Source of the DNA: Deltaproteobacteria bacterium
GTDB lineage: Bacteria > Desulfobacterota > Binatia > UBA9968
DNA length: 56,521 bases
Direction: 5' to 3'
Assembly (NCBI GenBank): GCA_016193465.1
Contig: JACPSE010000156.1
Location: forward strand, 1-56,521
Of the stretch, positions 18,051 through 50,043 are shown piece after piece (position 1 is the stretch's first letter; the number at the start of each line of letters is the position of its first letter). A program made the position numbers and the translations under genes. The notes under the pieces are model-generated. The model was given only the letters and a program-made list of their open reading frames with translations, made no database searches and was not told the origin of the DNA.

Positions 18051-19746
18051 CTACGTTTTCTTTTTACCCTCAAACTCACTAGCCAACTCAGCCGATCTCT
18101 TTCTCTCCTGCTCGATCTTTTTGCCCGTTTCATAATACCTTCCCTGAACCGCCAGCTCCGCCTCCACCTCATCCCGGTTGCTCCAGAGGCCCAAAGAGTA
18201 GCCATGCCAGGGGGTGCGCGGCTTAAGCGCTGGCAAGTCCAGGCCTTCCCAGATCTCTTTGGCCCGCTCCATATATTTCCTCGGCGGCAGCGATATCGGG
18301 GGATAAAGAGCGTGGCGCATTCCATTGATGAGCAGAATGGATGCCTCGTGAGTCTTGGTGGCGCATTCCATTGATGAGCAGAATGGATGCCTCGTGAGTC
18401 TTGGCCACCGGCGAGATCATCGGCGCCACAGCGGCCCTCTCTCCTGGAGCGACGGAAGAGTAATCATGGACGTTGGCGAGCTTTTTGACCACACGGAGGT
18501 CTTCGTGCGGGCGTATCGCCGCGCTCATCGCCCAAACAACCAGCTCGGTATTGTAAGGGTCAATATCCTCGTCTACTGCGATGACGATCTTCAGAGAAAG
18601 CCCCTTCCCCTCACCGGTGGCTGCTTCGAGCGCGCGCCAAACCTGTTCGCGCGGAGTTCCGTGCGCCATTCTCAGCACGCACCAGCGCCCGGAGTTGGCC
18701 ATTTCAATAAGCGCTACCTCTTTAAGCTCCTCGATTCCCGCGTCGTAGCGCACCCGCTTGTAAACGATGTTCTCTCGCGCCACCTGTTTGATCTTGCTCG
18801 ATTCGCTCGGGGTGAACTGACTCAAAAAGGAGACCCAAGTGGGGTTCTTTCGATGGGTAATGCACCGGGCGGCAAAGCAGGGCCCCCAGGATCTCACTGC
18901 CATGTACCCATGGGCCTCACCGAAGGGGCCCTCAGGCTCCATGAAGTCCGTGGGTAAAATCCCCTCGATCACGATCTCCGCCGTCGCCGGAACCTCCAAG
19001 TCCACAGTTTTGCAGCGCACCACCTCAATAGGCTCTCCTGCAATTCCTCCGGCCAGCGATAGTTCATCAAAACCGTAAGGCACTTTAGCTACCGCTGCAT
19101 AAGAAACAGCCGGCACTGCTCCGATCACCAGGGCCGTCTCTAAGGGACGTCCCATTTTGCGACACTTGTTCCAGTGAATCGCCAGGTGTGTATCGGGCGA
19201 GACACAGTAGATTCCCAAGCGGTTTGTTGCCTTCACCTGGCCGCGGTAATTTCCCATGTTGCGAACCCCGGTTTCCGGATCTTTGGTGATCCAGTGGGCG
19301 GCTGTGAGGTAGGGGGCATTGTCATACCCAGGAGTGGAGATCGGGATCGGGAACTCGTCCAAACCAGCGCTCTTGATCTCATCTTCTCCATGGATCTCTT
19401 CCTGCACCGGCCCGGAGGCGACCAAGCGCGGCGAGATGGGGTGGAGCTGCGCCTCAGACCACCGCTGGGTGATCTCATGGTGCGCGCAGCGCATGCCCAG
19501 GGCATAGATATCTTTGCTCGCCGCAAGTCCGGCCACGAGCACTGGGATCGAATAACGCCGCCCGCGACCATCGACCACCTTCTCGAAGAGAAAGGCCTTC
19601 CGCTCAGCCTCCTCCAGGCCGCGGAATTGCCAGCGCACCAAGGGATGAAGCTCGGTGTCTTTGTTAATTTCAGCCTGGATGCGCCGCAGCTTGCCTTGGC
19701 TCTCCAGAGTCGCAATATATTCCCTCAGGTCATGATAGTAAGGCAT
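18051..19746 (-). pseudogene. UbiD family decarboxylase, frame broken by 46-bp duplication
   Basis: Read from ATG 19746, residues 1 to about 463 are a normal UbiD-type enzyme: NMGNYRGQ carries the prFMN-site Arg, and EGPFGE has the catalytic glutamates at E272 and E277. A perfect 46-bp tandem duplication (18313-18404) then shifts the frame, giving a 507-aa product with an unrelated end that stops at 18223. If one copy is removed the frame continues through SLPPRKYMERAKEIWEGLDL and RTPWHGYSLG to 18051, giving 549 aa, the length of the long UbiD clade. So the break is recent, or it is an assembly error. It is the last gene of a permease-SBP-UbiD-UbiD operon. Confidence 0.85.
18313..18404. repeat. 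46-bp perfect tandem duplication
   Basis: Positions 18313-18358 and 18359-18404 are identical. The unit is not a multiple of three, and it lies inside the 3' part of the UbiD gene, which it frameshifts. The absence of any difference between copies means the event is young. Confidence 0.95.
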
Positions 19747-19844
19747 ATCAACCCTCGCAATTGCAAAAGAGAAAGTTCAAATTGCGGAGCGCAAAATCAG
19801 TTGTGAATTTTCAATTTGCAATCTGCATTTTTCATTAAGCACTG

Positions 19845-21281
19845 CTATCTCCCAAAGGAGCCTACAAAAGGGGAGGGCGAAATCAGCTTGCCCCATTTTT
19901 CCAGAATGCGCTGTCGCATGTCGCTTGATATCTCTACAGGGATCTTGGCCTGCTTCTTCCACTCCACGGGGGTGCAGGCATCGATGATGCACCGGGAGTT
20001 GTATCCTTTTTCTGCCTCCGGTCTCCCCGCGAAGTGGATAGAGTCCATTTGATCCGTCCAGCAGTAGCGGATGATCTCGATGGCGCGTTGCGGGTCCGAG
20101 CGGAAGAGTATTGCCCAAATCACCTCATCGAGGTTAAAGGGATCGACATCATCATCCACCACTACCACGTAGCGCCCCATAAAACCGCCGCTGTGACATT
20201 GGGATGCCAGCAGGCCTATCTGCCGGGCCTGCCCGGCATAACGCTGCTTGATCGACACCACGATCAGAAAACGTGAGTAGGTGGCGACTGCCTGGACATC
20301 GCGGGCACCGGCTCTTTCGATCTCATCCCAGATCATGCCGCCAAAAAGGAAATCACCTTGCATCTTGGCTTGGGCCGGTCGACTCAATTGACGCGGCAAC
20401 TGCCCCAACAGGATAGGGTTGTGGCGGTGATATATGGCTTTGACACGAATGATCGGCGCCGGCCTTGGCTCGCTGTAACCCGTCCATTCGCCGAAAGGCC
20501 CTTCCATCTGAAACTCACCAGGGGGAACCTCGCCCTCAAGGACAATCTCAGCAGCAGCAGGGATGGGTAAGCCAGTGAGGGGCCCAGGAATGATCTCTAG
20601 CGGGCTTCCTTTGAGCCCCCCGGCAAACTCATATTCGGAAATGCCCCAAGGGACGTGGAGAATGCTGGCCATGAGCAGGGCAGGATCTCCGCCTAACAGC
20701 ACCACCACAGGACACGGTTCAGATCGACTGCGATACTTGTCCAGGATCACATCCCCATGTTTCCCATAGCAGATGTACAATCCCAGGCTCTTGTTATCGT
20801 GCACCTGCAAGCGATAGTTGCCGAAATTGACCCACCCCTCTTCCGGGTCGCGCATGACCACCGCATCCGCGGTGCCGATGTAGCGCCCGCCGTCCAGCTC
20901 ATGCCACAAAGGCACGGGAAATTTGAGCACGTCCGCTTCCGCTCCAACCAACCTGTTCTCCATCACCGGGCCGCCCGCGACTATCTTCGGGGGAATGGGT
21001 TCAAGCCGCTTGAGGCGCTCGCGCCATTCCCGGTTGAGGGCCTTTCCATGGGCTGTGGTGGATAGTCCCACGGTAAAGAGCCATGCCTTAAGGGATTTGG
21101 AGGGATTGGCGAGAATCCGGTAGCCTGGCGGGTACCCCTTGATCTGGTCAAAGAGCACCGGATGGCTGGAGATGTCGGCTGCGGCGCTCACTTCGTGCTT
21201 CCAGTCGGCGCCCTGAATTTGTCTAAGCTCCCCCATCGCCTCCACCTGCTGAATCCAATCCCGCAGGTCTGTGTAACTCAT
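19845..21281 (-). CDS. UbiD family decarboxylase
   Basis: 478 aa from ATG 21281 (MSYTDLRDWIQQVEAMGELR), which has GGAGAGGG upstream; the longer frame to 21308 would overlap the SBP gene. The prFMN-binding region NFGNYRLQV and the catalytic EGPFGEW (E260, E265) are intact, as is the late DDDVDPFNLDEVIWAI metal/oligomer block. UbiD enzymes catalyse reversible decarboxylation of unsaturated or aromatic acids using prenylated FMN supplied by UbiX. By eye it is closest to the product at 45251. It sits 17 nt after an SBP gene and before a second UbiD, which suggests that the imported acid is its substrate. A ~100-bp A/T-rich spacer follows. Confidence 0.93.
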   Translation of the reverse strand: MSYTDLRDWIQQVEAMGELRQIQGADWKHEVSAAADISSHPVLFDQIKGYPPGYRILANPSKSLKAWLFTVGLSTTAHGKALNREWRERLKRLEPIPPKIVAGGPVMENRLVGAEADVLKFPVPLWHELDGGRYIGTADAVVMRDPEEGWVNFGNYRLQVHDNKSLGLYICYGKHGDVILDKYRSRSEPCPVVVLLGGDPALLMASILHVPWGISEYEFAGGLKGSPLEIIPGPLTGLPIPAAAEIVLEGEVPPGEFQMEGPFGEWTGYSEPRPAPIIRVKAIYHRHNPILLGQLPRQLSRPAQAKMQGDFLFGGMIWDEIERAGARDVQAVATYSRFLIVVSIKQRYAGQARQIGLLASQCHSGGFMGRYVVVVDDDVDPFNLDEVIWAILFRSDPQRAIEIIRYCWTDQMDSIHFAGRPEAEKGYNSRCIIDACTPVEWKKQAKIPVEISSDMRQRILEKWGKLISPSPFVGSFGR

Positions 21282-21297
21282 GAGTCCCTCTCCTTTC

Positions 21298-22335
21298 TCA
21301 TTTGGCAAAAAAGATTTGCTCAGTGAACTTACGAATCTTTGCTCCCTGCTTCAGGTCATCTTCGGTGGTCGTTCCAAGCAGTTTTTTCCCCTTGAGCAAA
21401 AGCTCTGGATGCGGCACCGGGACATCGGCTCTTACCGGTGTATTGCCTCTTTCCCCAAGAGCTTTCTGCGCCTCGTCCCCGATTTGAAAATTCGCCCAGA
21501 TCTTGGCCGCGTTGGGGTGGGGGGTGTTCTTGACAAGCCCTTGGCTAATCGCGATGTAAGCAACGCCCTCGCTCGGCGTGATCCACTTGACCGGCGCCCC
21601 CTTGAGCCGGGCAATTGCGCCCGCGAGCGCCGGTAAATACACCGGAAACTCTCCCCGGGCCAGCGATTTCTCGTTCTCGAGATACTGGGGTCTGAACTGG
21701 AGGTTCTGTTTTGCCAGTTCCGCCAGAAAGGGCCCGCCGAGGGTCTTGTAGGTTACAATAAACCAGGTATTTCCTCCACCGGCGCCTCTGGGGTCGTCGG
21801 CGAGGATTCTGCCTTTCCACTTGGGATCGAGCAGATCCTTCCATGATTTTGGCTCTTCGCCTCGCTTGACCAGGCTTGTGTTGACCAATAAGCCGTAGAT
21901 GTTCAAGTAGACCGGGATCAATATATTATCAGGGTCGCGGAACTCCTCAGGGGTGTGTTTGAGGTTGGGCGGGCGGTGGGAAACCAGGACTCCCCTCCAC
22001 TTGAGATCACTCATGGTGGTGGGCCCGGTGGACATGATGTCAGCAACATATCTTCCAGCCCTCTGCTCTGCGAGAATCCGGTCGTAGTTCTCGCGCCCTC
22101 GGCCTCCCGTAAAGTTCATCTCTACCCCATACCGTTGGTTGAATAAATTAAACACGGGCGCAAGGGCGATGCCGAGGTCTGGCGCCCCATAATAGTTGAT
22201 CTTGCCCTCTCGCTTTGCCCCTTTTAGGGTCGCTTCGTCGAATTCTGTCTGGCCGAAGAGCTGGCTTGAAAACGCCGCGATGAAAAAACCCGTGAAAAAA
22301 GCATACCAGCCCTTTTTCCAACGAAGGCTTTTCAT
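21298..22335 (-). CDS. ABC solute-binding protein (group C)
   Basis: 345 aa with a signal peptide (FFTGFFIAAFSSQLFGQ). It begins its mature part with LKGAKREGKINYYGAPD and has FNQRYGVEMNFTGGRG, WKDLLDPKWKGRIL and KNTPHPNAAKIWANFQ, the standard pattern of the Fe(III)/thiamine-type binders. It lies between the fused permease at 22364 and the UbiD gene at 19845. The ligand is unknown. Confidence 0.9.
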   Translation of the reverse strand: MKSLRWKKGWYAFFTGFFIAAFSSQLFGQTEFDEATLKGAKREGKINYYGAPDLGIALAPVFNLFNQRYGVEMNFTGGRGRENYDRILAEQRAGRYVADIMSTGPTTMSDLKWRGVLVSHRPPNLKHTPEEFRDPDNILIPVYLNIYGLLVNTSLVKRGEEPKSWKDLLDPKWKGRILADDPRGAGGGNTWFIVTYKTLGGPFLAELAKQNLQFRPQYLENEKSLARGEFPVYLPALAGAIARLKGAPVKWITPSEGVAYIAISQGLVKNTPHPNAAKIWANFQIGDEAQKALGERGNTPVRADVPVPHPELLLKGKKLLGTTTEDDLKQGAKIRKFTEQIFFAK

Positions 22336-24490: not shown

Positions 24491-25882
24491 ATGATGAATC
24501 TTCAGAGTTTTATTGGCGAGTATGAAAAAGCCCATCCCGAGGAAGTCATCCACATAGAGCAAGAGATCAACTCGCGCTATGAAATCACAGCCCTCGTGAT
24601 TCAAGGAGACGAATACTGGAAAGATCCTCCGGTTTTCATCTTTCATCGGGTGAAGGGCTCCAACGGGAACGTTTCACCCCATCCCGCTATTGTCAACCTC
24701 TTTGCCAGTCGCCCTCGGTGCGCGCGAATCATCGGCACCGACGTGCCTCACTTCGCCCGCGAGCTGCAGCGGCGTTGCACAGAAGAAAAACGCAAACCTG
24801 TTGTTGTAAAAAAGGGAGAGGCGCCGGTAAAAGAGGTCATCAATAAAGGCAAGGATGTTGATCTGTTTGAATTTCCTATCGTCACGCACCATTACCTGGA
24901 TGCCGGACCCTACTGCTCATCGGGTTTTGCCACTACCTATGATCCCGACAGTGGTGTTGATAACTGCGGCATCCAGAGGGGTTTTGTCAAGGCAAAGGAC
25001 GAGATCCGTTTCTGGCCCTGCCTCGGCACTCATAACAACTTTAACCTGGAGAAACACTGGGAGCGCGGTCAGGATATGCGCTTTGCATATTGGGTAGGAC
25101 ACCACCCGGCAGTCATCTTGGGGGCAGAGGTGCGGTTGGGTTATCCGGAAAGCCACTATGAGGCTGCGGGCGGCGTCATCGGAGAGCCGCTGCGTCTGGT
25201 TCCTTCGGAGAGCCTCGGCGACGATTTTCTTGTGCCCGCGGATGCTGAGGTGGTGATTGAAGGAATCGCTAAGGTGGGAGAGCGGAAGGCCGAAGGGCCG
25301 TTCGGGGAGGCTTGGGGGCATACCGGCGCGCAGCGGCTCAACCCGGTCATTCGGGTTACTGCGCTAACCCACCGCCGTGACGCCTATTGGATATCGAACA
25401 TGGTCAGCCACAAAGACATGCAGGTGTTTAATTCGTGGCGCGAGGTCATCATCTTAGAGGCAGCTAAAAGAGCTGTGCCCACCACTCAAAACGTTTATAT
25501 ACCTGTTCCAGGGATGGTTTTCTTGCAGATCAAGCAGACCCGCCGGAATCAGGGGAGAGAAGCAGGGCTGGCCGCTCTCGCCTCGGTGGAGGGGGCAAAA
25601 CATATCTTTGTTGTGGATGACGATATCGATATCTACAATATGCATGATATTCTCACCGCCATTGGCAGCCGTACCCAGTGGGACAAGGATGTGATCATCG
25701 TTCCTCGAGGTCGCGGGATCGGCACGGATCCTTCCATCTCCGAGGAAGCGACAACCGCCAAGGCGGTGATCGATTGCACGAAGCCAGTGCCGCCCCAGCC
25801 TTTTGAACCGAGGAACAGCGTGCCTGAAGAGGTGATGAAGCGGGTTCGACTTGAGGATTGGGTTGCTAAAAAATATCTCTGA
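24491..25882 (+). CDS. UbiD family decarboxylase
   Basis: 463 aa from ATG 24491 with GGAGG seven bases upstream. It has the UbiD core: GEAPVKEVINKGKDVDLFEF, GIQRGFVKAK with the prFMN-site Arg, EGPFGEAWGH with E268/E273, and VDDDIDIYNMHDILTAI. The residue after the motif is His where most paralogues have Tyr (GHT against GY), which may tune the substrate pocket. It opens a seven-gene operon containing two zinc-ribbon proteins, a bicupin, another UbiD, an SBP and an NMT1-like protein. Confidence 0.93.
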   Translation: MMNLQSFIGEYEKAHPEEVIHIEQEINSRYEITALVIQGDEYWKDPPVFIFHRVKGSNGNVSPHPAIVNLFASRPRCARIIGTDVPHFARELQRRCTEEKRKPVVVKKGEAPVKEVINKGKDVDLFEFPIVTHHYLDAGPYCSSGFATTYDPDSGVDNCGIQRGFVKAKDEIRFWPCLGTHNNFNLEKHWERGQDMRFAYWVGHHPAVILGAEVRLGYPESHYEAAGGVIGEPLRLVPSESLGDDFLVPADAEVVIEGIAKVGERKAEGPFGEAWGHTGAQRLNPVIRVTALTHRRDAYWISNMVSHKDMQVFNSWREVIILEAAKRAVPTTQNVYIPVPGMVFLQIKQTRRNQGREAGLAALASVEGAKHIFVVDDDIDIYNMHDILTAIGSRTQWDKDVIIVPRGRGIGTDPSISEEATTAKAVIDCTKPVPPQPFEPRNSVPEEVMKRVRLEDWVAKKYL

Positions 25883-25893
25883 GAGGAGTGGTC

Positions 25894-26064
25894 ATGCCGA
25901 AAATCAGTCTCGTAACATGTCCTGCGTGTCAGCAAAAATTTCCCGTCAACCGTTCAGATTTTATCGAGTGGGAAGGCGACTGCCGCTGTCCCTTCTGCGC
26001 CCAAGAGTTTCCTCCTGAGAAGGGGAAGCCCTATCCTCCACTTCACGCGGGAGCTGAGGAGTGA
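25894..26064 (+). CDS. small zinc-ribbon protein
   Basis: 56 aa from ATG 25894 (GAGAGGAG upstream). Two cysteine pairs, C9-P-A-C12 and C32-P-F-C35 with a further C30, form a zinc-ribbon pattern. It starts 12 nt after the UbiD stop, and its own stop overlaps the next start at GTGA (26061-26064). The position after a UbiD gene parallels the VdcD-like gene at 28378, so it may be a small partner subunit of this decarboxylase. That role is inference; the sequence itself is not clearly VdcD. Confidence 0.72.
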   Translation: MPKISLVTCPACQQKFPVNRSDFIEWEGDCRCPFCAQEFPPEKGKPYPPLHAGAEE

Positions 26065-26984
26065 TCATCGTAGATCACGATGAGGTAGAGAGAGTAGGAA
26101 CAAGGGTCTACGAGGGGAGCTTTGTCACAGATGTAAAAAGCTTTCCGGTGGAGCCCTGGCCGGAGCAGGGAAACCACGCCGCCCACTTCAATTTGTCCGG
26201 TAACCGGCTGCTCCGCGCCCATATTATGGCGGTTCCACCCGGCGAGAGAAAACCCACCCACCGCCACGTCAACGAAGCAGTCATTTACATTCCGACGGGG
26301 CACGGCTATAGCATCGTGCAGCAAGAGGGCAAGCTCGAACGGCGCCTGGATTTTCAGGAAGGCAGCCTCTTCTCTCCGCCTCTGAACGCCTACCACGGTC
26401 ACTACAACGGCGACGCCCAGCAATGGGTCAGGTACTTTGTAGTGACTAACATGCCTTTGAACCAGGTTGTTTACGGCGTCGGAGAGCGCAAAATCTACGA
26501 AAGATTTGTCTTTGGCAGCCCCTTTCTTTTTACCGAGAGGTATAACGGGGAGGAGAACTATTTCAGCGTGAATGAGCGGTTGGGCCCGTGTCGCTGGAAG
26601 GTCAATTATGTGAAGGACATTAACGAGATCCCTCTAGACCCTTCGCCAGAGAGGGGAGCGGGTGCCCGCACGATGCACCTTGAGATGGTGGGCAATACGA
26701 CGGTCGACGTGCAGATCTCGGAGATCCCTCCGGGTGGGTGTCAGGTGGCCCACCAGCATATTCACGAAGAGATTATTCATTTCTTTCAGGGTGAAGGCTA
26801 CACAGTGATTCGCCGAGCAGGAGAACGGGAGAGAAGGAAATACCTCTGGCATGCCGGCAGCCTTCTCTCGCCGCCGCGCAACTCCGTCCACCAGCATTTC
26901 TGCACCAGCCGTGAGCCCGCCCGTTATCTTTCGATCCAGACTGAAAAGCTCATGAAAGCCATGGGCATTGAGGCGCGACAGTGA
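26061..26984 (+). CDS. bicupin protein
   Basis: 307 aa from GTG 26061, coupled to the zinc-ribbon gene. It holds two cupin domains: the first has THRHVNEAVIY (H67, H69) and SPPLNAYHGHYN, the second HQHIHEEIIHFFQGEGY (from H231) and SPPRNSVHQHF. The His-rich turns would bind a metal, as in gentisate- or hydroxynaphthoate-type ring-cleaving dioxygenases and related bicupins. It has no signal peptide and so is cytoplasmic. Between two UbiD genes, a ring-opening or hydrolytic step after decarboxylation is a reasonable guess. Its stop overlaps the next start (GTGA, 26981-26984). Confidence 0.85.
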   Translation: MIIVDHDEVERVGTRVYEGSFVTDVKSFPVEPWPEQGNHAAHFNLSGNRLLRAHIMAVPPGERKPTHRHVNEAVIYIPTGHGYSIVQQEGKLERRLDFQEGSLFSPPLNAYHGHYNGDAQQWVRYFVVTNMPLNQVVYGVGERKIYERFVFGSPFLFTERYNGEENYFSVNERLGPCRWKVNYVKDINEIPLDPSPERGAGARTMHLEMVGNTTVDVQISEIPPGGCQVAHQHIHEEIIHFFQGEGYTVIRRAGERERRKYLWHAGSLLSPPRNSVHQHFCTSREPARYLSIQTEKLMKAMGIEARQ

Positions 26985-28381
26985 CTTTTAGAGATCTGAG
27001 GGGATGGATCCGTTTCCTGGAAGAAGAAGGTGAGCTCCTTCGCATCAATGACGAGGTGAAATTGGAGCCGGATGTGGCGGCCATCGGTAAAGCGATCTGT
27101 GAGAGTGAGGGTCCGGGGGTCTTTCTGGAAAAGATCGCCGGCTACACCACTCCTCTCACCATCGGCCTTCATGCCTCGTGGAGGAGAGCGGCGTTGGCCT
27201 TGGGACTCAAAAAAGATGCCACGCGGGAGGAGCAACTGGCTGCCTGGCACCGGGGATGGAAGAGATTTCCCGTCGCGCGTGTAGAGGTCGGCAAAGCCCC
27301 CTGCAAGGAAAACAAGATGGTAGGCGGGGAAGTGAATCTTTTCGCATTTCCCATTCCCCGGGTCAACCAGCAGGACGGCTCTTTTTATATCTGCAAGCCC
27401 TGCTGTATTACGCGCGATCCGGATACCGGCGTGGTCAATATCGGAATGTATCGCATGATGATTCTGGACCGGGCCAAAACCGGGATTTTGATTCCCAGTC
27501 ATCAGGACGCCGGCCGGAGCTATGCTAAGTATCTCCGTCGCGGCCAAACAATGGAGATGGCTGTGGCCCTGGGAACGGAACCGATTCTTCCTATGGTCGC
27601 TGGGACACGCATTCCTCCGGACTGGAGCGAGTACGACTTTGCCGGCGCCTTAAAGGGTGAGCCTGTAGAAGTGGTTCGAGGCGAAACTGTGGATCTTCCG
27701 GTTCCGGCTGGCGCGGAGATTGTTTTGGAAGGAGAGGTCGGACCGGAAAAGGCCTTTGAGGGGCCATTTGGGGAATATCACGGCGCCTACTCGGGTTATC
27801 TGCGACTGCCGGTCTTCAGCATCCGCGCCGTGAGCCATCGGAATCATCCCATCTTCGACACTCTCTACATTGGCCGCCCAAACAGCGAAAATCATTATAT
27901 GACCCTTTTTGGCAAGCTGGTGGGGGCTGAGGAAGAAATGAAAAGGTTCGTCCCCAGCATCACCCGGATGGCCTATTTGGGTCCGTACGGGATGAACGCG
28001 GTGATCCAAGGTCGGTGGCGCCACAGCGGGGAGCCGCGCCGGGCGATGAATGCCTGGTGGGGATCTTCCTTTGGACCCCATGCCAAATTGCTGGTTTGCG
28101 TGGATGAGGATGTGGATCCGTGGAACCCTTTCGACGTGATGTGGGCGATAGCAACCCGCGTCCAGGGAGAGCGGGATATCGTTCTCATGCCTCATTCCGA
28201 AGGGGTCCTGGATCCTACCTCGAATCGCGAAGGCTTGAGTTGCAAAATCGGCATCGATGCCACCAAGCCGCGCTATCCGGCGTATTCCTACGATCCTGTC
28301 GATTGGGTCACTGAGCCTCCTGGAACTGCTCAGTGGAAGGAAAAAATTTTGCAGCAGTGGAACCGGGGGCGGAATCCATGA
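26981..28381 (+). CDS. UbiD family decarboxylase
   Basis: 466 aa from GTG 26981, overlapping the bicupin stop by 4 nt. The prFMN-site Arg is R158 (NIGMYRMMI) and the glutamates are E260/E265 in EGPFGEYHG. The late block CVDEDVDPWNPFDVMWAI is complete. The 3' end overlaps the VdcD-like gene (ATGA, 28378-28381). That pairing is known from non-oxidative hydroxyarylate decarboxylases (VdcC-VdcD, BsdC-BsdD), so this is the best candidate here for a vanillate- or 4-hydroxybenzoate-like decarboxylase. Confidence 0.94.
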   Translation: MTFRDLRGWIRFLEEEGELLRINDEVKLEPDVAAIGKAICESEGPGVFLEKIAGYTTPLTIGLHASWRRAALALGLKKDATREEQLAAWHRGWKRFPVARVEVGKAPCKENKMVGGEVNLFAFPIPRVNQQDGSFYICKPCCITRDPDTGVVNIGMYRMMILDRAKTGILIPSHQDAGRSYAKYLRRGQTMEMAVALGTEPILPMVAGTRIPPDWSEYDFAGALKGEPVEVVRGETVDLPVPAGAEIVLEGEVGPEKAFEGPFGEYHGAYSGYLRLPVFSIRAVSHRNHPIFDTLYIGRPNSENHYMTLFGKLVGAEEEMKRFVPSITRMAYLGPYGMNAVIQGRWRHSGEPRRAMNAWWGSSFGPHAKLLVCVDEDVDPWNPFDVMWAIATRVQGERDIVLMPHSEGVLDPTSNREGLSCKIGIDATKPRYPAYSYDPVDWVTEPPGTAQWKEKILQQWNRGRNP

Positions 28382-28575
28382 AAGAATGTCCACGCTGCGG
28401 AGAATCCAATCCCCATAAGCTTGCCGATTCACCAGTGGCCGGGGTCTTCACTATCTGGGGCTGCCGCGAGTGCAACTATGTCTGGCGCTCCACGGAAGAT
28501 CTGTCAGGGCTAAAGAAGCTCACCAAAGAGGCGAGGGAAAGAGCTGTCGATTTGAAGTACCTGACTGAGCGGTAA
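28378..28575 (+). CDS. VdcD/BsdD-like hydroxyarylate decarboxylase small subunit
   Basis: 65 aa from ATG 28378. CPRCGESNPHK, then SPVAGVFTIWGC and CNYVWRSTEDL, closely follow the known VdcD/BsdD pattern (CPRC...SPVxGVWTxYxCxxCxYxWRxTE). Two CxxC pairs would bind zinc. It overlaps the UbiD gene at 26981 by 4 nt, the arrangement expected for a C-D subunit pair. The exact role of the D subunit is not settled in the literature I know. Confidence 0.88.
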   Translation: MKECPRCGESNPHKLADSPVAGVFTIWGCRECNYVWRSTEDLSGLKKLTKEARERAVDLKYLTER

Positions 28576-28678
28576 GATCTTTCCCGTTTTGCATAGCAGC
28601 CATGGAGAGGAACGGTGCGGGTTTTTTTGAACTAGACGCGCGTGCCGGGCTTACCCAAGCACTGGCTGGAGGAGGTAG

Positions 28679-29791
28679 ATGACTGTGCGAAAACGTAGAG
28701 AACAAGGCCCTCCTTTATTAACAATGGTACTCATTTTTTGCGGAGGTTTGGTCTATTCTCCTCTTCCTTCGCTAGCTCAGAGCAATCTATTGAACCGACT
28801 GGTGGAGGCCTCTAAGGCGGAGATGGCAGTGAAAGGAGGCAAACTACACGTCGCTACGGAATGGACCAAGACGACGGAAGGGATACCTATACTTAAAGCC
28901 TTCCAGAAAGATTTTCCTTTCATAAAGGAACTGGACTTCACCCGCGAGAGGGGAGTGGACAACATGCAGCGAATCCTCATTGAGGTTCAAGCGGGGAGAG
29001 TCCCAAAATATGACATCTTGAAAGTCTCATCGGAGCTCTGGCCTGAATACGCAAAGGCAGGGCTATTTGTAAAACCCCCCTTTGACTACCACAAGTTAGC
29101 AAAGTCCCTTCCACCCGACTGGGGAGAAATAGACCCGCGGGCGATCGATCCGGAAGGCATGTTCATAGCCACGACGGCCAGGGCTATGGGCAACGTCTGG
29201 AACATTCAGCTCGCCCCAAAAGGAAAGGAGCCCACGAGTTGGGAAGCCTGTCTCGACCCCATGTGGAAGGGAAAGTTTTTATACGATCCCCGTCCCAAGA
29301 TGAACGGCCTCTGGTACGATGCCAAAACAAGAGAGAAGCACCTCAAATGGCTCAGGGGAATAGTAGAGAATGGGGTTGTGCTCAGCCGTGGACAGACGGA
29401 AAATGTCGAGAAAGTGGTTTCGGGTGAATTTCCCCTCGTTTGTGGGGTTCAATACGAAAGCGCCGCCAGAATAATCGACCAGGGAGCCCCTCTCAGGTTT
29501 GCCTTTCCCGATCCGTTCCCCATGCACTTTTCGACCCAATTCCATGTGGTCAAGTGGTCGAAGACACCGGCCACGACACAACTCTTTGCTTTATGGGCAG
29601 CGAGCACAGGACAAGAAGCTATAGATAAACATGCCTATCTCGGCTTCCCATGGGATCCCAGGACTAGAAAGTATCTGCTGGCCAAAGGGAAGTACGTTGC
29701 CATCTGTGACGCGCAGTGCATCCTCCGGTCTGATGAGTATGACGGGTTGCATGCAAGCATCCTCAAATTACCCGGAGCGAGATCAAAATAA
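28679..29791 (+). CDS. ABC solute-binding protein (group B)
   Basis: 370 aa from ATG 28679 with GGAGG at 28671. After an N-terminal signal peptide ending near SLAQ come the group B marks: EASKAEMAVKGGKLHVATEW, KDFPFIKELDFTRERG and CLDPMWKGKFLYDPR. Near the C terminus is a CX3C pair, C343 and C347 (ICDAQC), conserved in all group B members here. It follows the decarboxylase block and has no adjacent permease in its own operon; the convergent operon at 30909-33771 carries one. Confidence 0.9.
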   Translation: MTVRKRREQGPPLLTMVLIFCGGLVYSPLPSLAQSNLLNRLVEASKAEMAVKGGKLHVATEWTKTTEGIPILKAFQKDFPFIKELDFTRERGVDNMQRILIEVQAGRVPKYDILKVSSELWPEYAKAGLFVKPPFDYHKLAKSLPPDWGEIDPRAIDPEGMFIATTARAMGNVWNIQLAPKGKEPTSWEACLDPMWKGKFLYDPRPKMNGLWYDAKTREKHLKWLRGIVENGVVLSRGQTENVEKVVSGEFPLVCGVQYESAARIIDQGAPLRFAFPDPFPMHFSTQFHVVKWSKTPATTQLFALWAASTGQEAIDKHAYLGFPWDPRTRKYLLAKGKYVAICDAQCILRSDEYDGLHASILKLPGARSK

Positions 29792-29812
29792 GACATTTTC
29801 AGGAGGGAGAAT

Positions 29813-30874
29813 ATGCCATTTCGAATAGCGACTTCTCACTACCACGTCGGCCACATCATCCCCGCCATGGTCGCTAAGGAGATGACCTACTTTGAAGAGG
29901 AGGGACTCGATGACTATGAGGTTGTCACCGGTGGCCTGGTCCCAGCGATCGTAGAGAGGGTTGCCCTTAGACGGGCGATGAAGGAGAAGGGGATCGATAT
30001 CGTGGCTGACCCTAAACCCTCTTCTGTTTTCACTTTACGTGGCCAGGGTGAGGATATCTACATCGTTGGCTGCTGGCGCAATCAGCACGACTTTCAGTTC
30101 CTAGGAGCGCGAGGTTTGAAGGGTCTGAAAGACCTCAAAGGGAAACGCATCGGCGTGCGCGACTATTGGGCCATCGATCATGCCGTGATGCGAGTTTATT
30201 TAGGGCGGCAAGGGATCGATCCGGAAAAGGATGTCACTTGGCTCAGAGGCGCCCATTTTCATCTCGCCAGAGAGGTGGCGGCGGATTCGCTGCGCAAGGG
30301 AATGGCTGACTGTGTCCCGGTTCCGCCATCAACCGTGCCTGGACTCCTTGCCGAGGGGTACCCGCTGCTGCTGGACACCCGTCAGCTTTACCCCAATGGT
30401 ATGCCAGTCCGGGTAATTGCCACGACGCGCCGCGTTTTGGAAGAGAAATCCGAGGCCCTGGAGGCGTACCTTAGGGCTACCATAAGAGCCTACTGGTTCA
30501 TTATGGACGAGGAGAAGAATCGGGGGTATATCAATGCCCTAAACCGGAGGCTAAGGCGACAGAGCCCGGATGAAGAGGAACAGAAGTTAGGTTACCTTGA
30601 AGGGAGCAGTAGCGCGACTGTTCTACCCTTAGATGGGGCCCCTTCTATCGAAGGTTTACAATCGATGCTGGCAGAAGCCAAAGAGATGGGAGATGTGCGA
30701 CCGGATTTCTCTCTAGAGGATGTCTTGAAGCTGGATCCTGTACGGCGGGCGTATGAAACCCTTCGCCGGAAGGAAGATCTTGCATCTGCCCTCAAGAGGG
30801 CGCAGGAGCTTTTTCACAACAGCCGAAGACCGCTCCTATCAACGGCGAGCCAGGAAAAGAGTGCAGAGAGATGA
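29813..30874 (+). CDS. NMT1/SBP-fold cytoplasmic protein, subgroup II
   Basis: 353 aa from ATG 29813 (AGGAGGG upstream), with no signal peptide. It has the periplasmic-binding-protein type II fold marks of NMT1/THI5-like proteins: YFEEEGLDDYEVVTGG, LKGLKDLKGKRIGVRDY and LRATIRAYWFIMD. The N-terminal motif SHYHVGH gives an HxxH pair at H11/H14 shared with all relatives here. The same fold is used by 4,5-dihydroxyphthalate decarboxylase, so an enzyme rather than a binding protein is possible. It ends an operon of two UbiDs, a VdcD-like subunit and an SBP. Confidence 0.85.
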   Translation: MPFRIATSHYHVGHIIPAMVAKEMTYFEEEGLDDYEVVTGGLVPAIVERVALRRAMKEKGIDIVADPKPSSVFTLRGQGEDIYIVGCWRNQHDFQFLGARGLKGLKDLKGKRIGVRDYWAIDHAVMRVYLGRQGIDPEKDVTWLRGAHFHLAREVAADSLRKGMADCVPVPPSTVPGLLAEGYPLLLDTRQLYPNGMPVRVIATTRRVLEEKSEALEAYLRATIRAYWFIMDEEKNRGYINALNRRLRRQSPDEEEQKLGYLEGSSSATVLPLDGAPSIEGLQSMLAEAKEMGDVRPDFSLEDVLKLDPVRRAYETLRRKEDLASALKRAQELFHNSRRPLLSTASQEKSAER

Positions 30875-32682: not shown

Positions 32683-33771
32683 CTATTTCGCCCCCGGCAT
32701 CCCTAGGATTCTAGCGTGCTCGGCGTCGTAATCCGGTGATTTTTTCAGACACTCCACGTCGCAGACGGCTGCGTATTTACCCCTGGCCATAGGATATTTT
32801 CTGGAATTGGGATCCCAGGGGAAGCCGCGGTAGGCGTATTTTTCCACCAGCGGCTGTGCCTTCGTGGCTAGCCAGGTGATAAAGAGTTGCGCTGTGGCGG
32901 GGGTCTGGGACCACTTAACAATGTGGATCTGGGTACCAAATTCCAAGGGGAAAGGGTCAGGGAAAAGGAAGACCAGCGGGGCCCCCCTGTCGATTGCCGT
33001 CATAGCGCTCGTGTAGTTGACCCCACAGAAAAGGGGATGTTCCCCAGCGGCCACCTTTTCCACATTCTCTGATTGGCCCCGGCCGAGGACCACCTTGTTC
33101 TCTACAATTCCTTTCAACCATTTCAGGTGGGCCTCTCTGGTCTTAGGGTCGTGCTGAAGGGCAGTTAGTTTGGGGCGAGGATCATAGAAGAATTGTCCCC
33201 GCCAGGTGGGATCGAGACAGTCCTCCCACTTTTTGGGCGCCTTATTCGGCGAGACTGAATCCTTGTTATAGACGATCCCCCGGGCAAGGCCGGCGGTGGC
33301 AATAAAGTAGCCCTCTCGGTCCACAGCCCTTGGATCTGGCGCTGGCCAGTCGCGAGGAAGAGAACGGACCAGCTCCGTGTAAGGGACAGGCGGCTTCACA
33401 AACACCCCTGCATCTCGATAGCTGGGCCAAGCCTCAAAGGAGACATGAACGATATCGTATTTGGGGATCCGTCCGGCCCGGTATTCTACCAAAATGCGTT
33501 GCATCTGGTCCGTGGTTCTCACACGCTCGAAGCTGGCCTCTTTGATCGCTGGAAGCTCCTTTTTAAAGGCCTCTACGATCTGCTTCCCGCCCGCCTCCCA
33601 TTCCAGCGCTACCAGGAGCTTTCCCCCTTTCTTGGCCATCTCGGCCTTGGAGGCTTCCATAAGCTGGCTAAAGGGATTGGCCTGAGCCGATACCGCGATC
33701 GGGAAAGCTGTTTGCCAGAGAACCATCGCCATTCCCGAGAGAAAAGAAAACCAATATTTGCTTGTACCCAT
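32683..33771 (-). CDS. ABC solute-binding protein (group B)
   Basis: 362 aa from ATG 33771, supported by AAAGGAGGG upstream; the frame is open to 33873 but without signal-peptide logic. The signal peptide is GMAMVLWQTAFPIAVSAQ. The mature protein carries EASKAEMAKKGGKLLVALEW, WEDCLDPTWRGQFFYDPR and the C-terminal CX3C pair C337/C341 (VCDVEC). It is the first gene of a two-gene operon with the permease at 30909. Confidence 0.92.
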   Translation of the reverse strand: MGTSKYWFSFLSGMAMVLWQTAFPIAVSAQANPFSQLMEASKAEMAKKGGKLLVALEWEAGGKQIVEAFKKELPAIKEASFERVRTTDQMQRILVEYRAGRIPKYDIVHVSFEAWPSYRDAGVFVKPPVPYTELVRSLPRDWPAPDPRAVDREGYFIATAGLARGIVYNKDSVSPNKAPKKWEDCLDPTWRGQFFYDPRPKLTALQHDPKTREAHLKWLKGIVENKVVLGRGQSENVEKVAAGEHPLFCGVNYTSAMTAIDRGAPLVFLFPDPFPLEFGTQIHIVKWSQTPATAQLFITWLATKAQPLVEKYAYRGFPWDPNSRKYPMARGKYAAVCDVECLKKSPDYDAEHARILGMPGAK

Positions 33772-33878
33772 GGGATCTCCCTCCTTTTGTGGAGTCTTGT
33801 ATATCTGTTCTTTTGTCATCGCAAGACCATTAGTCCTATTCCGTAGAGTGGCGACCCGCCGCGCCAATCCCACCGCGC

Positions 33879-43729: not shown

Positions 43730-45208
43730 TCATGAAGACCTCCTACTGACCCTCTCTATGTAGGTGGCCGGGTCCATCTTCTTTTTGAGCTCTTCGGAGA
43801 CGGTGGCGTGAAGCGAGAAGGGCTGCTTAAAAGGCCTGGTGGCATCGATCCCAAGACGGGTTGAGACCTCCTCCAGATGTGAAGCGCCAAGCGCCTCAGG
43901 ATCGCAGCCACCACCGGGGAGAGCCGGGATGATAATAAAATCCTCAGCAGTGGTTCTGGAGGCCACAGCCCACCATACCTCTTGCTCGTCGAAAACATCC
44001 ACGTCATCATCCACCGCCACCACATATTTGTTGTGACCTCTCTCCATGGCCATAATGGTGAGAATGGCGGCGCGGGCGTCCCCTTTTTGCCGGTGTTTGA
44101 GGGAGACGAAGGTCCAATAAGACCCTCCACCGGAGACCGGACAATAGATCGCCTTTACAAGTGGGGCGACCAGTCTGACCCTCTCGTAGAGGGCGGCCGC
44201 TTTGCCTGTTAGCAAATTGACGCAGGAGTTTCCCCATGCGGCGTGAGGGACGAACCAAGCGTCCCGCCGGTGGGTGATGGCTTTGACGTGAAGGACAGGG
44301 TAATTGCGGGGCATAGGGTAACCGTAAGGCCCATCCGGCCAAACCCCCTTGAATCCCTTGTAATAGCCGAAATGCTCCACAAAAGGGCCCTCTTCCCCCC
44401 ACTCCCCGGGCAGGGCTTCGGCTTCGATAATAATCTCAGCATCGGCTGGCACTAAAAAATCTTCACCCCAAGTCTCCGACGGTACCAGGCGAAGAGGCTC
44501 CTGTAAGAGGGCCGTTATATCGGCATACTCATCCTCCCCGTAGGGGCCTGCCCACTGCGTCGCCATATAAGTCGCCAGATGATGGCCGCTCACAATCACC
44601 ACCGGGCAAGGCCGGTTGAGCCTTTGATATTCGTTGTAAACCAGGCGGCTGTGGGTGCCTGGCGTGACTCCATACATAATTGTGGCGGGGTCCTTGACGT
44701 GGAAGCGGTTAATCGAGATGTTGTAGTGCCCGTTGGAAGGGATTCTGGTGATGACAGGCATCCCAGTGATGTAGTAACCGCCGTCATGCTCGTAGTATTT
44801 TGGAATAGGAAATTCAAAGAGGTCTACGTCTCCTCTCACCTTTCTCACCTCTTTGACCGGAGCCTCGCCCCGCGCCACTGTTGCTGTCCCGATATTGCGG
44901 TTTTGGGTAAGGAGCTGCTGCATTTTCAAGGTCAGTTCCATGCGCCATTGGTCTGGGGGCAGGCCGATGGCTACAGCCATTCGCTGCCGTGAACCAGCCA
45001 TATTCATGCACAGGGGGAAACTGGATCTCTTTCCGTGCATATTTTTGACATTGTCAAAAAGAACTAAAGGATATCTTCCTTTAGCCTCAAGGTTGTGAAT
45101 GAGGGCCGCTGCCTCAAGGCAGGGGTCTACTTCTCTGGTGACCCGAACCGTATCCTCAGGCACAACTTCAGTCAATTGAGCCAAGAAGTAGCGAAAGTCT
45201 TTGGCCAT
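43730..45208 (-). CDS. UbiD family decarboxylase
   Basis: 492 aa from ATG 45208, with GAGGAGA upstream; the frame is open to 45250 but without a ribosome site. The prFMN-site Arg is in YNISINRFHVKD. The catalytic pair is E273/E278 in EGPFVE, where Val replaces the Gly seen in all other copies here. The late block VAVDDDVDVFDEQEVWWAV is present. The extended PDGPYGYPMPRNYPVLHVKA insert and the altered motif make it the most divergent UbiD in the window. Confidence 0.92.
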   Translation of the reverse strand: MAKDFRYFLAQLTEVVPEDTVRVTREVDPCLEAAALIHNLEAKGRYPLVLFDNVKNMHGKRSSFPLCMNMAGSRQRMAVAIGLPPDQWRMELTLKMQQLLTQNRNIGTATVARGEAPVKEVRKVRGDVDLFEFPIPKYYEHDGGYYITGMPVITRIPSNGHYNISINRFHVKDPATIMYGVTPGTHSRLVYNEYQRLNRPCPVVIVSGHHLATYMATQWAGPYGEDEYADITALLQEPLRLVPSETWGEDFLVPADAEIIIEAEALPGEWGEEGPFVEHFGYYKGFKGVWPDGPYGYPMPRNYPVLHVKAITHRRDAWFVPHAAWGNSCVNLLTGKAAALYERVRLVAPLVKAIYCPVSGGGSYWTFVSLKHRQKGDARAAILTIMAMERGHNKYVVAVDDDVDVFDEQEVWWAVASRTTAEDFIIIPALPGGGCDPEALGASHLEEVSTRLGIDATRPFKQPFSLHATVSEELKKKMDPATYIERVSRRSS

Positions 45209-45250
45209 AGTCTTTCTCCTCGGGTAAGTTTCAGAGATATGGCTGTCCAT

Positions 45251-46696
45251 TTAGGAGGGAAAAATCTCCTTCCATTTTTCCATGACCTGTCTTTTGAGGT
45301 TTTCCTCGACGTCCACCGTGTCCGGAAATTCGTCTCGCCATTCATAGGGACGGCAAGCATCAATGATCGCTCGAGAATTAAAACCCTTTCGGCTTTTTGG
45401 AATGATGGGATCCAGAGGGCCGCTCCAGCAGCGACGGATGATCTCGATCGAGGATTCCGGGTCAGAACGGGTGCAAACCGCCCACATAACGTCATTCAGA
45501 TCACTCACATCAATATCGTCGTCCACGACGATTACATAGCGTCCCAGATAAGCCGAGCCGCGGCAGAAAGAGGCGATCATCCCTGCCTGGCGTGCGTGGC
45601 CTGGATAGCGCTGACGAATGGAGACGACAATCATCAGCCGGTGACCTCCCACCTCGTGAGACCAGACCCCAACAACATCCGGCACACCGGCCTTTTCCAA
45701 CTCTACCTTGATCTGGCCGGCGCGAGCGAAGCAAGAGGCCATGGTGCCCTGGGCGTGTGGTGGGCGGCCAGGAGGGTTGCCCAGGATAATCGGGTTGTTC
45801 CGATGGTAGATTGCCTTGACCACAAAGAGATTCTCTCCCCGCACCGAGCTGCCATAATAGCCAGTCCACTCGCCGAACGGACCCTCGGGCACGCTCTTAT
45901 CAGGGAGGACTTCGCCCTCGATGGCAATTTCGGAGTCGGCTGGAATCGGGAGGCCAGTAAACTCTCCGCGAATAACCTCGATGGCTTTGCCGCGCATGCC
46001 TCCGGCCCAGTCGTACTCCGACTCACCATAAGGGATGGCCTGAAAGCCCGCAAGAAAGAGGAGCGGATCATGCCCGACGCTAATCACCATTGGGCACGGC
46101 TTGCCCTTGTCGAAGTATTTTGTGCGATGGATGCGCCCATCTTTGCCTGGCGAGATGTAGCAAGTGACGTGGGTGCGATCCACAATCATGGTGCGGTAAA
46201 CGCCAAAGTTGACCCACCCGCCGTCCGGATCGCGAGTGATCGTGATGCTGCCGGTGCCAATATAACGGCCGCCGTCCTTAAAGTGCCATATAGGCGTGGG
46301 AAACTTCAGTAAGTCTACCGCGTCTCCTTTGAGGACGTTTTCTGTAACGGGACCATGCGGGACCTCAACGGGGGGGGTCGGCCGCAGGGAAATGTGCTTC
46401 TCACGCCATGCATCCACGTATTGGAGTTTAGTCAGTCCCAACGGAAGGCGGGCTGCAAGCGCTACACGGTTGAGGGAATTTAGGGCGTTGCTTAGAACCC
46501 GAAAGCCGGGACGATAATCTTGAATCTCATCAAAAAGGAGGGCAGGGGCGTGCGGTTGCCTTCGGCTGCACTCGGTGATAGCGCCGATTTCTTGATTCCA
46601 GTGGGCGCCCTTCAACTGCTTGAGCTCGCCCATCGCTTCAACCTGTTCGAGCCAGTCGCGCAGGTCGCGGTAAGTCGTTACAGCATCTCGTTCCAT
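45251..46696 (-). CDS. UbiD family decarboxylase
   Basis: 481 aa from ATG 46696 (AGGTG site upstream). It begins TTYRDLRDWLEQVEAMGELK, close to the product at 19845. NFGVYRTMIVD bears the prFMN-site Arg, and EGPFGEWTGYYG has E271/E276. VVDDDIDVSDLNDVMWAVCT completes the family pattern. It precedes the UbiD at 43730 by 42 nt. Upstream of it lies the scar of a deleted NMT1-like/SBP pair. Confidence 0.93.
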   Translation of the reverse strand: MERDAVTTYRDLRDWLEQVEAMGELKQLKGAHWNQEIGAITECSRRQPHAPALLFDEIQDYRPGFRVLSNALNSLNRVALAARLPLGLTKLQYVDAWREKHISLRPTPPVEVPHGPVTENVLKGDAVDLLKFPTPIWHFKDGGRYIGTGSITITRDPDGGWVNFGVYRTMIVDRTHVTCYISPGKDGRIHRTKYFDKGKPCPMVISVGHDPLLFLAGFQAIPYGESEYDWAGGMRGKAIEVIRGEFTGLPIPADSEIAIEGEVLPDKSVPEGPFGEWTGYYGSSVRGENLFVVKAIYHRNNPIILGNPPGRPPHAQGTMASCFARAGQIKVELEKAGVPDVVGVWSHEVGGHRLMIVVSIRQRYPGHARQAGMIASFCRGSAYLGRYVIVVDDDIDVSDLNDVMWAVCTRSDPESSIEIIRRCWSGPLDPIIPKSRKGFNSRAIIDACRPYEWRDEFPDTVDVEENLKRQVMEKWKEIFPS

Positions 46697-48057: not shown

Positions 48058-49032
48058 TTACCCTCCGATGCTGTCTTTAAATACAAAGCCTGTATCCATC
48101 ATCTTTTCCATGATAGGCCTGCTGTTCATTTCCAGGTAGCGGGCAGGCTCTTTGCCACTGCGATGACCGTGTTCGTGCCATGTGTTGACGGGTATGGCGA
48201 TGAGATCTCCGGCTCCCCATTCATACCTTTCCTCAGCCGTTTTCTCGCTCCAGACCCTCGTGTACCCGGCACCGCTTAGTATATAAAGGAAACTCTCGTA
48301 GTAGTGCCGGTGAGGTTTGCGTGTTGTGCCTGGGGGTAGCTCCACCACATGAGCGCCGATGGTGGTGTTGGCAGATAATTCAAGCCCGATTCCCAGTCCA
48401 CCCCGTTCAGGCCATGGGGAGAGGGGAAGGGAACCGAGGTCCTCGACCCAAACGCCCTTATAAGTGGCGGGAAAGTCATCACCACGTTTCTCAATCACCA
48501 CTTTCTCAGGGTCATAGGGAATGGATCGGGCGTAGTTTCGCAGAGGGTGGCCGGTGGTAAGGTCGAAGCCCCGTGCCTGGTCCCTCCCGATCAGTCTTCC
48601 CATCAGGGGGACATTGATAATGGCAAGGTAACGAATGAAACTACCTTTGTCCGGGAAATGATCATGGTGCCAGTTCAATGGCGGGGAAAGTACGCTTCCC
48701 TCATGATACGGGAACCGGTAGCGTTGGCTCCCCTCCTCTTTCCATAGCTCGATTGTGCCCTTTCCGCTCACCACATAGACGAAGGCCTCGTAATAGTGCT
48801 TGTGCCGCCCGGGGATGTCACGGTGTCCTCCGTATGGGACTTCCGCCAGAAATGGCTTGATCGCTTCGAGGCCCGTATCGAAGGAAGTCCGACTACACTC
48901 CCAACCCTCGAGGTTCACAGGGTGAACCGGATGGGTCTTGAGATCCTTGAAACACTTTCCCGCGTAAATGTAGTGAACCCGCTCTTCATCCGCGGTCCAG
49001 CGCTCCTTCACAACTTGATAGTTCGTCGACAT
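48058..49032 (-). CDS. bicupin protein
   Basis: 324 aa. Cupin 1 has HKHYYEAFVYVVSGKGT and SPPLNWHHDHF; cupin 2 has HRHYYESFLYILSGAGY and IPVNTWHEHGH. Both His-x-His...Glu...His sets look complete, so each domain could bind a metal. It is cytoplasmic. It is a paralogue of the product at 49048, and both are more alike than either is to the bicupin at 26061. Ring cleavage or hydroxy-acid isomerisation are possible; nothing fixes the reaction. Confidence 0.87.
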   Translation of the reverse strand: MSTNYQVVKERWTADEERVHYIYAGKCFKDLKTHPVHPVNLEGWECSRTSFDTGLEAIKPFLAEVPYGGHRDIPGRHKHYYEAFVYVVSGKGTIELWKEEGSQRYRFPYHEGSVLSPPLNWHHDHFPDKGSFIRYLAIINVPLMGRLIGRDQARGFDLTTGHPLRNYARSIPYDPEKVVIEKRGDDFPATYKGVWVEDLGSLPLSPWPERGGLGIGLELSANTTIGAHVVELPPGTTRKPHRHYYESFLYILSGAGYTRVWSEKTAEERYEWGAGDLIAIPVNTWHEHGHRSGKEPARYLEMNSRPIMEKMMDTGFVFKDSIGG

Positions 49033-49047
49033 GAATCTCCTCCTCTG

Positions 49048-50043
49048 TTAGTTGTCTTTAAAGATAAAGCCCGGATCAAAAAGCTTCTCCATCATTGGAC
49101 GATTGTTGGCCTCAAAGTAGCGGACAGGCTTGTCAGTGCTGGAGTTAAAATGTTGATGCCAGTGGTTTAGGGGGATACTTAGAAAGTCTCCTTCAGCCCA
49201 ATCGTATCTCTTTTTGCTCTCATCTCCCTTGCCTATGAGCGTGTATCCCTGCCCGCTCAAGATATAGACAAAGGATTCGTAATAATGGCGGTGTGCCTTT
49301 TTCTCGCTTGCGCCGGGAGGAATTTCCGCCACATGCGTGGCGATCGTACGGTTTTCTGCGAGGTCGAGGAAGAGGGCCGAGCCTCCTTGCTCAGGCCAGG
49401 GCTTCAACGGCAGGCTCCTGATATCGGAAAAACAAATCCCGCGCGCGGCCGCAGGGAACCCATATCTCTTTCCACGAAGAGTCTGGGTCTTCTTGGGATC
49501 ATAGGGCACCTCCCTCTCATAGTCCTTGGGGACGTCACTGTGATCGCTATGGCGAACAATGCCGCCGCCGACGTGCAGATCCATGAAATGCTCGTTGATG
49601 ATCGCCAAATAACGCGCCGGCTTATCCGGGCTCGTGTTGTAGTGATCGTGGTGCCAGTTGAATGGCGGAGACCAGATGCTTCCCTCTTGCCAACGGAATT
49701 TGTATTTTCGCCCGCCTTCACGCCATATTTCACTGTAGCCCTCGCCGCAAGGTATATAGATGACCGCTTCCATATAGTGGCGATGCATGCCCGTCACTTT
49801 TCTCTTTCCCCCCGGTGGGATCTCCACAATGAAGGCCTTTATGGCTGTGTTGAAGGGACCGAAGCGGGTCTGAGTGAAGGCGGTGAGATCTTTGCCCGCC
49901 ATTCCCGGAGCAAAAGTGGGCAAGGTTTTTAGGTTTCGTGCTAGTAAGTCTTTATGGTAATGAACGTCGATTGTGGCCCCTTCTTTATAGAACCAGGGCT
50001 CGGTTTTGAAGATATATTCGTCACTCGATGGTATGCCGCTCAT
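49048..50043 (-). CDS. bicupin protein
   Basis: 331 aa, first gene of the long minus-strand operon that runs to 34874. Cupin 1 shows HRHYMEAVIYIPCGEGY and SPPFNWHHDHYN; cupin 2 shows HRHYYESFVYILSGQGY and IPLNHWHQHFN. The aromatic-rich SPPFNWHHDH turn is shared by the family. GGAGG lies before ATG 50043. It has no signal peptide. Confidence 0.87.
   Translation of the reverse strand: MSGIPSSDEYIFKTEPWFYKEGATIDVHYHKDLLARNLKTLPTFAPGMAGKDLTAFTQTRFGPFNTAIKAFIVEIPPGGKRKVTGMHRHYMEAVIYIPCGEGYSEIWREGGRKYKFRWQEGSIWSPPFNWHHDHYNTSPDKPARYLAIINEHFMDLHVGGGIVRHSDHSDVPKDYEREVPYDPKKTQTLRGKRYGFPAAARGICFSDIRSLPLKPWPEQGGSALFLDLAENRTIATHVAEIPPGASEKKAHRHYYESFVYILSGQGYTLIGKGDESKKRYDWAEGDFLSIPLNHWHQHFNSSTDKPVRYFEANNRPMMEKLFDPGFIFKDN

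Follow-up and report, generated by a model that had tools for sequence, protein, structure and literature searches.

The contig JACPSE010000156.1 of a Deltaproteobacteria bacterium genome (GenBank assembly GCA_016193465.1, class Binatia), whose 56,521 nucleotides (nt) are called the window below, carries two genes of the UbiD family of (de)carboxylases, each followed by a gene for a small protein with a pair of CxxC motifs, and a bicupin gene in between. The question raised by this locus is whether its products form one multi-subunit decarboxylase with an embedded bicupin, as was proposed in the initial annotation, and what role is played by the smaller CxxC protein of 56 amino acids (aa). We consider it probable (roughly 0.72) that the operon encodes two separate UbiD holoenzymes, each with a dedicated zinc-ribbon subunit, and a bicupin of the same pathway. 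The genes in question are as follows:

24491..25882, plus strand: UbiD1, 463 aa, a member of the ribbon-linked UbiD clade (Pfam UbiD/UbiD_N/UbiD_C above cut-off, PDB alignment, tree)
25894..26064, plus strand: 56-aa zinc-ribbon protein, C9-x2-C12 ... C32-x2-C35, proposed small subunit of UbiD1 (ATG start, conservation behind UbiDs, fusions, pN/pS)
26061..26984, plus strand: bicupin, 307 aa, with a predicted salicylate/gentisate 1,2-dioxygenase-like fold (GTG start, Pfam Cupin_2, structure model)
26981..28381, plus strand: UbiD2, 466 aa, putative VdcC/ShdC-like (de)carboxylase (GTG start, ShdC as best PDB match, tree)
28378..28575, plus strand: VdcD/ShdD-like zinc-ribbon small subunit, 65 aa (ATG start, NF041205, ShdD match)

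Two UbiD genes with different zinc ribbons

The three-domain UbiD match (PF01977/20695/20696) exceeded the gathering scores in both UbiD1 and UbiD2 (Pfam scores of 164 and 224 bits at a cut-off of 23); Pfam and NCBIfam models also supported the bicupin and the VdcD-like protein, while the 56-aa protein reached no cut-off. UbiD2 has its best PDB match in ShdC of Sedimentibacter hydroxybenzoicus (7ae4, 309 bits), clusters with it as a sister in the tree (Shimodaira-Hasegawa-like approximate likelihood ratio test, SH-aLRT, 99) and, when aligned to ShdC, 6h6v and Escherichia coli UbiD, displays the full set of catalytic residues, that is, those binding prenylated flavin mononucleotide (prFMN) and metal, and the Glu-Arg-Glu triad. 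Its score with the VdcC model NF041204 (377 bits) is below the curated cut-off of 650, this model being nevertheless the top-scoring NCBIfam subgroup. The 65-aa protein, the gene of which is joined to that of UbiD2 by an ATGA overlap, matched the NCBIfam VdcD model NF041205 (55.5 bits, above the cut-off of 30) and ShdD (7ae7/7ae4, E 2e-9), sharing with the latter the residues C4/C7/C29/C32 of two CxxC knuckles. Judging by sequence, UbiD2 and the 65-aa protein are an ordinary VdcCD/ShdCD-type pair. In enzymes of this type VdcC is inactive without VdcD, which is needed at about 1:1 for activity at all times. VdcD, as an obligate subunit of the zinc-ribbon type, decorates the VdcC hexamer, touching the loops that carry the catalytic Glu-Arg-Glu triad (PMC8379154).

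The 56-aa protein gave no match to NF041205 in the NCBIfam scan, and its alignment with the VdcD profile had an hhalign probability of just 7.8% and covered one 10-residue knuckle, on which grounds the ribbon was rejected as a VdcD homologue on sequence. The initial annotation was right that each UbiD is followed by a small protein with a CxxC pair, one VdcD-like and the other not. The scores of the 56-aa protein were below the cut-offs for MJ0042 (15.2 vs 20.9 bits), Zn_ribbon_4 (17.0 vs 30.3 bits) and Zn_ribbon_5 (17.2 vs 29.3 bits). Twenty-six members of its family, when scanned against NCBIfam and Pfam, produced just scattered generic zinc-ribbon matches, and no model of either library describes the family. 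Open-access literature names VdcD, LpdD and PhdC/YclD as helpers of UbiD enzymes (PMC8379154, PMC10865409, PMC13040415); no second UbiD-associated zinc ribbon beyond VdcD was found in this literature, which misses most subscription papers. The family is apparently undescribed.

The ribbon family behind UbiD genes

For the purposes of this work, the family was defined as CxxC-x16-20-CxxC ribbons whose gene immediately follows that of a UbiD or that are fused to one. Among the 57 near-full-length UbiD genes in the examined stretches of the source genome (61 domain hits), UbiD1 falls into a nine-member clade with support 99/97; for five of the nine, a small CPxC...CP[FY]C protein is encoded immediately after the UbiD, and no such protein was found behind the UbiDs of this genome outside the clade. 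A profile built from these five ribbons and searched by sequence alone matched all 35 genomes of the taxonomic order, so the 56-aa frame, the conservation of which in relatives had been left as an issue, is indeed conserved there as a UbiD neighbour. In total, 66 short-frame or fused matches were gathered, matches in long frames (350-540 aa, E above 1e-5) being uncounted as other proteins with generic ribbons. Three of the 66 lie at contig ends and could not be judged upstream (L142, L144, L166). Nearly all of the others (62/63) either form part of a UbiD chain or lie on the same strand directly downstream of a UbiD gene, complete or truncated, at a distance of about 0-250 nt, the sole exception (L141, contig C69 of the source genome, ~1090-1350, minus strand) being a ribbon after a leftover 3' end of a UbiD. 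The ribbon region of L141 is nearly identical to an intact copy on contig C154, as in a partial duplication that retained the ribbon. Ribbons follow UbiDs in all genomes of the order, which is more than chance would give. In other orders of the phylum, those short-frame matches of high significance (E below 1e-8) that were opened likewise adjoin UbiDs.

The ratio of nonsynonymous to synonymous polymorphism (pN/pS) in the ribbon gene was 0.12-0.16 in three subtypes, where synonymous sites are nearly saturated. The 56-aa frame represents a genuine gene under purifying selection. In a tree of 108 UbiDs, the ribbon-linked ones gathered in one clade of 56 rows (SH-aLRT 96), which includes four unlinked members; the linkage state requires a minimum of four changes on this tree, and the ribbon subtypes match the UbiD subclades. 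VdcD exceeded the cut-off in just two of the 35 genomes of the order, and the new ribbon, found in all 35, is therefore the commoner one in this lineage.

On a wider scale, the best 80 relatives of UbiD1 were scanned, with one genome per species. A ribbon within 350 nt or C-terminally fused was detected for 46 of them, and the 47th (L229) carries it at the N-terminus. The ribbon-bearing metagenome-assembled genomes (MAGs) are labelled as Chloroflexota, Bacillota, Thermodesulfobacteriota, Acidobacteriota, Tectimicrobiota, Fidelibacterota, Myxococcota/Deltaproteobacteria, Pseudomonadota and an archaeon; such labels and binning are fallible, and single-phylum cases are to be taken with caution. 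A plasmid collection of cultured hosts contained UbiD relatives of 30-33% identity; of the three records opened, two carry no annotation, and in the annotated one, that of Natrinema versiforme, no annotated ribbon directly follows the UbiD.

Natural fusions occur at both ends of UbiD: the ribbon is C-terminal in L167 and L218 and N-terminal in L229. L218 is the best relative of UbiD1 in the scan of 80 (46% identity), and its fused ribbon (VTCPSC...ERSDY...CYCLFCEHEFP...YPPL) is closely similar to that of the window (VTCPAC...NRSDF...CRCPFCAQEFP...YPPL). One more candidate, L209, was rejected as a fusion, its ribbon lying 8 nt past the UbiD and being read in another frame. The fusions bear on the thought that the ribbon makes no contact with the enzyme and instead controls the decarboxylase genes at the level of translation or transcription. 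Nucleic-acid binding is frequent among small zinc-ribbon proteins, and the nearest library matches are generic zinc ribbons (Zn_ribbon_4, MJ0042, YnfU), below cut-off in the window member; however, with ribbons fused directly to UbiD at either end and the ribbon gene following the UbiD gene instead of preceding it, we regard such regulation as very improbable.

In genomic terms, the candidate role of the 56-aa protein as a subunit of UbiD1 is strongly supported by fusion, adjacency and co-inheritance. UbiD1 would pair with this ribbon, a member of a second ribbon family that is restricted to one UbiD clade and has no detectable sequence kinship with VdcD. By analogy with VdcD, the ribbon would bind zinc via its two CxxC knuckles, dock on the cognate UbiD and hold it in the active conformation, both UbiDs being putative prFMN-dependent (de)carboxylases. 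The bicupin probably belongs to the same pathway, e.g., as a ring-cleaving dioxygenase with a product or substrate of the decarboxylases as its target.

Several points weigh against this picture. A ribbon, whether adjacent or fused, is missing from four members of the UbiD1 clade in its own genome and from 33 of the 80 best relatives, a few of which lie at contig ends, hence the ribbon is not universally required. UbiD1 retains the Asn, the Arg and the EGPFGE motif, and has His in place of the metal-ligand Glu (SHYEAAG), a replacement constant across its subclade, so that its cofactor chemistry may differ. The same replacement was observed in the UbiD1 relatives L100, L104 and L149-L152. In the MASSM-type ribbon-linked UbiDs the triad is gone (Arg to Thr, Glu to His, Glu to Asp), yet these proteins are conserved (L103, L109-L112, L114); a role in stabilising Glu-Arg-Glu consequently cannot hold for every ribbon-linked member. 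By their sequences, the MASSM-type proteins look non-catalytic, which suggests that non-catalytic UbiD subunits exist. The predicted structure of the 56-aa ribbon is of low confidence (predicted local distance difference test, pLDDT, 68) with no significant fold match, and neither supports nor excludes a fold common to VdcD. Sequence comparison establishes that the 56-aa gene is real, conserved, located beside UbiDs, inherited with them in one clade and fused to them in nature; zinc binding, docking, activation, the substrate and the bicupin reaction are our inferences.

The ribbonless relatives and the unusual His ligand, which could call for special metal loading, would also suit a maturation factor of UbiD1 (a prFMN chaperone, metal donor or redox helper), similar to LpdD or PhdC/YclD, and such accessory factors do exist for other UbiDs (PMC10865409; PMC13040415). 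We nevertheless hold this role of the 56-aa protein to be improbable: UbiD fusions and one-to-one matching of subtypes are easier to reconcile with a stoichiometric subunit than with a shared chaperone, and a CxxC-pair ribbon is like VdcD in its architecture.

One complex or two enzymes

All seven reading frames of the run at 24491-30874 proved to be open and complete on the plus strand at the coordinates initially annotated, and the three 4-nt overlaps (GTGA at 26061, GTGA at 26981, ATGA at 28378) were confirmed. These overlaps had been taken as a sign of fixed stoichiometry; start/stop overlaps indicate translational coupling, not stoichiometry. UbiD1 and its ribbon are separated by 11 nt, a ribosome-binding-like sequence, GAGAGGAG, preceding the ATG at 25894. 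As the VdcD-like gene is followed by a gap of 103 nt, the tightly coupled unit comprises the five genes at 24491-28575, and of the seven-gene operon initially suggested, the last two members stand apart:

28679..29791, plus strand: extracellular solute-binding protein (SBP; Pfam SBP_bac_8)
29813..30874, plus strand: NMT1-like protein (Pfam NMT1; weak match to 3qsl)

The SBP is 59% identical (BLASTP) to another SBP at 32683-33873 on the minus strand, which adjoins an ATP-binding cassette permease gene, and the two likely arose by duplication. No signal peptide was recognisable by eye at the N-terminus of the NMT1-like protein, which, judging by its sequence, may be a cytosolic enzyme instead of a transporter component. 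The window contains five more UbiD genes on the minus strand (18223-21308, 43730-46696 and 52661-54178, two of these sets being adjacent pairs), as well as a tandem bicupin pair at 48058-50043 on the minus strand. No UbiX gene was found in the stretch described.

The bicupin possesses a 3-His site (H231/H233/H277) in its C-terminal cupin, invariant in ten aligned bicupins, and further His residues (H67/H69/H112/H114) in the N-terminal one. Its model (pLDDT 85.5) is closest to salicylate/gentisate 1,2-dioxygenases (VIA-align Z 22-23; 2.9-3.2 A over 243-253 residues), followed by oxalate decarboxylases (Z 20), and its scores are below the equivalog cut-offs (18.6 vs 442 bits for TIGR02272, 34.8 vs 650 bits for NF049978). 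From the model, a ring-cleaving role is plausible. No ortholog was found among 97 genomes, the relatives detected there being at most about 42% identical.

Parts of the locus recur elsewhere: UbiD-ribbon-bicupin in L150/L233 and UbiD-ribbon-UbiD-bicupin in L152/L242 and L221, along with SBP-ribbon-bicupin-UbiD (L244) and UbiD-bicupin-UbiD-ribbon (L103). At 16 listed loci, a few of which are the same place counted twice, the ribbon is followed within 900 nt by a second UbiD. The MASSM-type linked UbiDs often adjoin a second UbiD, and at the MGQ- and GNT-type ribbon loci examined no second UbiD directly follows the ribbon. The exact five-gene order was found in no other genome searched, contrary to the expectation that it would be shared; the second VdcD copy of the order (L173 in genome G010) stands in the arrangement UbiD-VdcD-two unclassified genes-UbiD, with no ribbon or bicupin.

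It is these arrangements that have to be weighed in deciding whether UbiD1 and UbiD2 make up one hetero-oligomeric enzyme, with both ribbons as accessory proteins and the bicupin physically attached, which is the single system of the initial annotation. Phenylphosphate carboxylase, in which two UbiD-type subunits and small accessory subunits are encoded together, provides a precedent, and the overlapping starts in the window, the recurrence of UbiD-ribbon-UbiD loci and the frequent position of the triad-less MASSM-type UbiDs beside a second UbiD, as for a non-catalytic subunit, are in line with it. However, both UbiDs of the window retain the Arg and the EGPFGE motif, and each has its own, different ribbon; the MGQ- and GNT-type loci lack a second UbiD at this place, and the absence of the five-gene order elsewhere speaks against a fixed machine. 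Considering these facts, we find a hetero-oligomer unlikely; an assembly of the five gene products into one complex, though possible, lacks support.

Two UbiD holoenzymes with dedicated ribbons therefore remain our preferred reading. A further-reaching version of it has, in our estimate, an even chance of being correct, namely that the 56-aa protein founds an unnamed cross-phylum family of ribbon subunits independent of VdcD, that zinc-ribbon activation arose at least twice, and that the MASSM-type UbiD is a non-catalytic partner of the neighbouring active UbiD.

Significance and relation to known UbiD systems

Several UbiD enzymes are inactive if expressed alone, absent partners being a recognised reason, and a ribbon of ~50 codons with no family model is easily omitted from constructs or annotation. 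Should the ribbon be a subunit, it would provide a practical means of activating the enzymes of an entire UbiD clade, one represented in MAGs that hold up to about 60 UbiD genes. The reason why some aromatic UbiDs need a zinc ribbon would then become testable by comparing two apparently unrelated solutions. UbiD expansion is evident across the order: 61 domain hits were counted in the 4.5-Mb source genome, from 16 to at least 64 per genome in 34 relatives, and 34 in a single-contig genome.

As regards known systems, UbiD2 and the 65-aa protein resemble the vanillate/4-hydroxybenzoate decarboxylases VdcCD/ShdCD/BsdCD (7ae4, 7ae5, 7ae7) both in sequence and in gene adjacency. The UbiD1-ribbon pair shares with VdcCD the general plan, in which the UbiD gene has directly behind it one that encodes a small protein bearing two CxxC knuckles, but its ribbon goes with another UbiD clade and has 19 residues between the knuckles vs 21 in ShVdcD. 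Phenylphosphate carboxylase PpcAB(C)(D) is alike in encoding two UbiD-type subunits together with small accessory ones; the window UbiDs, in contrast, are below the phenyl_P_alpha and phenyl_P_beta cut-offs, and neither a phosphatase nor a gamma subunit is encoded here. PpcGamma is itself unrelated in sequence to VdcD (PMC8379154). LpdD and PhdC/YclD are likewise small proteins aiding UbiD enzymes (PMC10865409, PMC13040415), but the former is a chaperone that binds prFMNH2 and has a proteasome-chaperone-like fold, the latter is a flavin-binding maturase, and neither is described as a zinc ribbon. The solved chain closest to UbiD1 (6h6v, 176 bits), which we take to be the furan-dicarboxylate decarboxylase HmfF, has the UbiD fold and the EGPFGE motif in common with it, but is distant in evolution, groups outside the ribbon-linked clade and differs at the metal ligand, Glu being replaced by His in UbiD1. 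The bicupin, lastly, has its top structural matches in salicylate/gentisate 1,2-dioxygenases (4fbf, 2phd, 3bu7, 2d40), which are also bicupins with a 3-His site, although it is just 13-18% identical to them.

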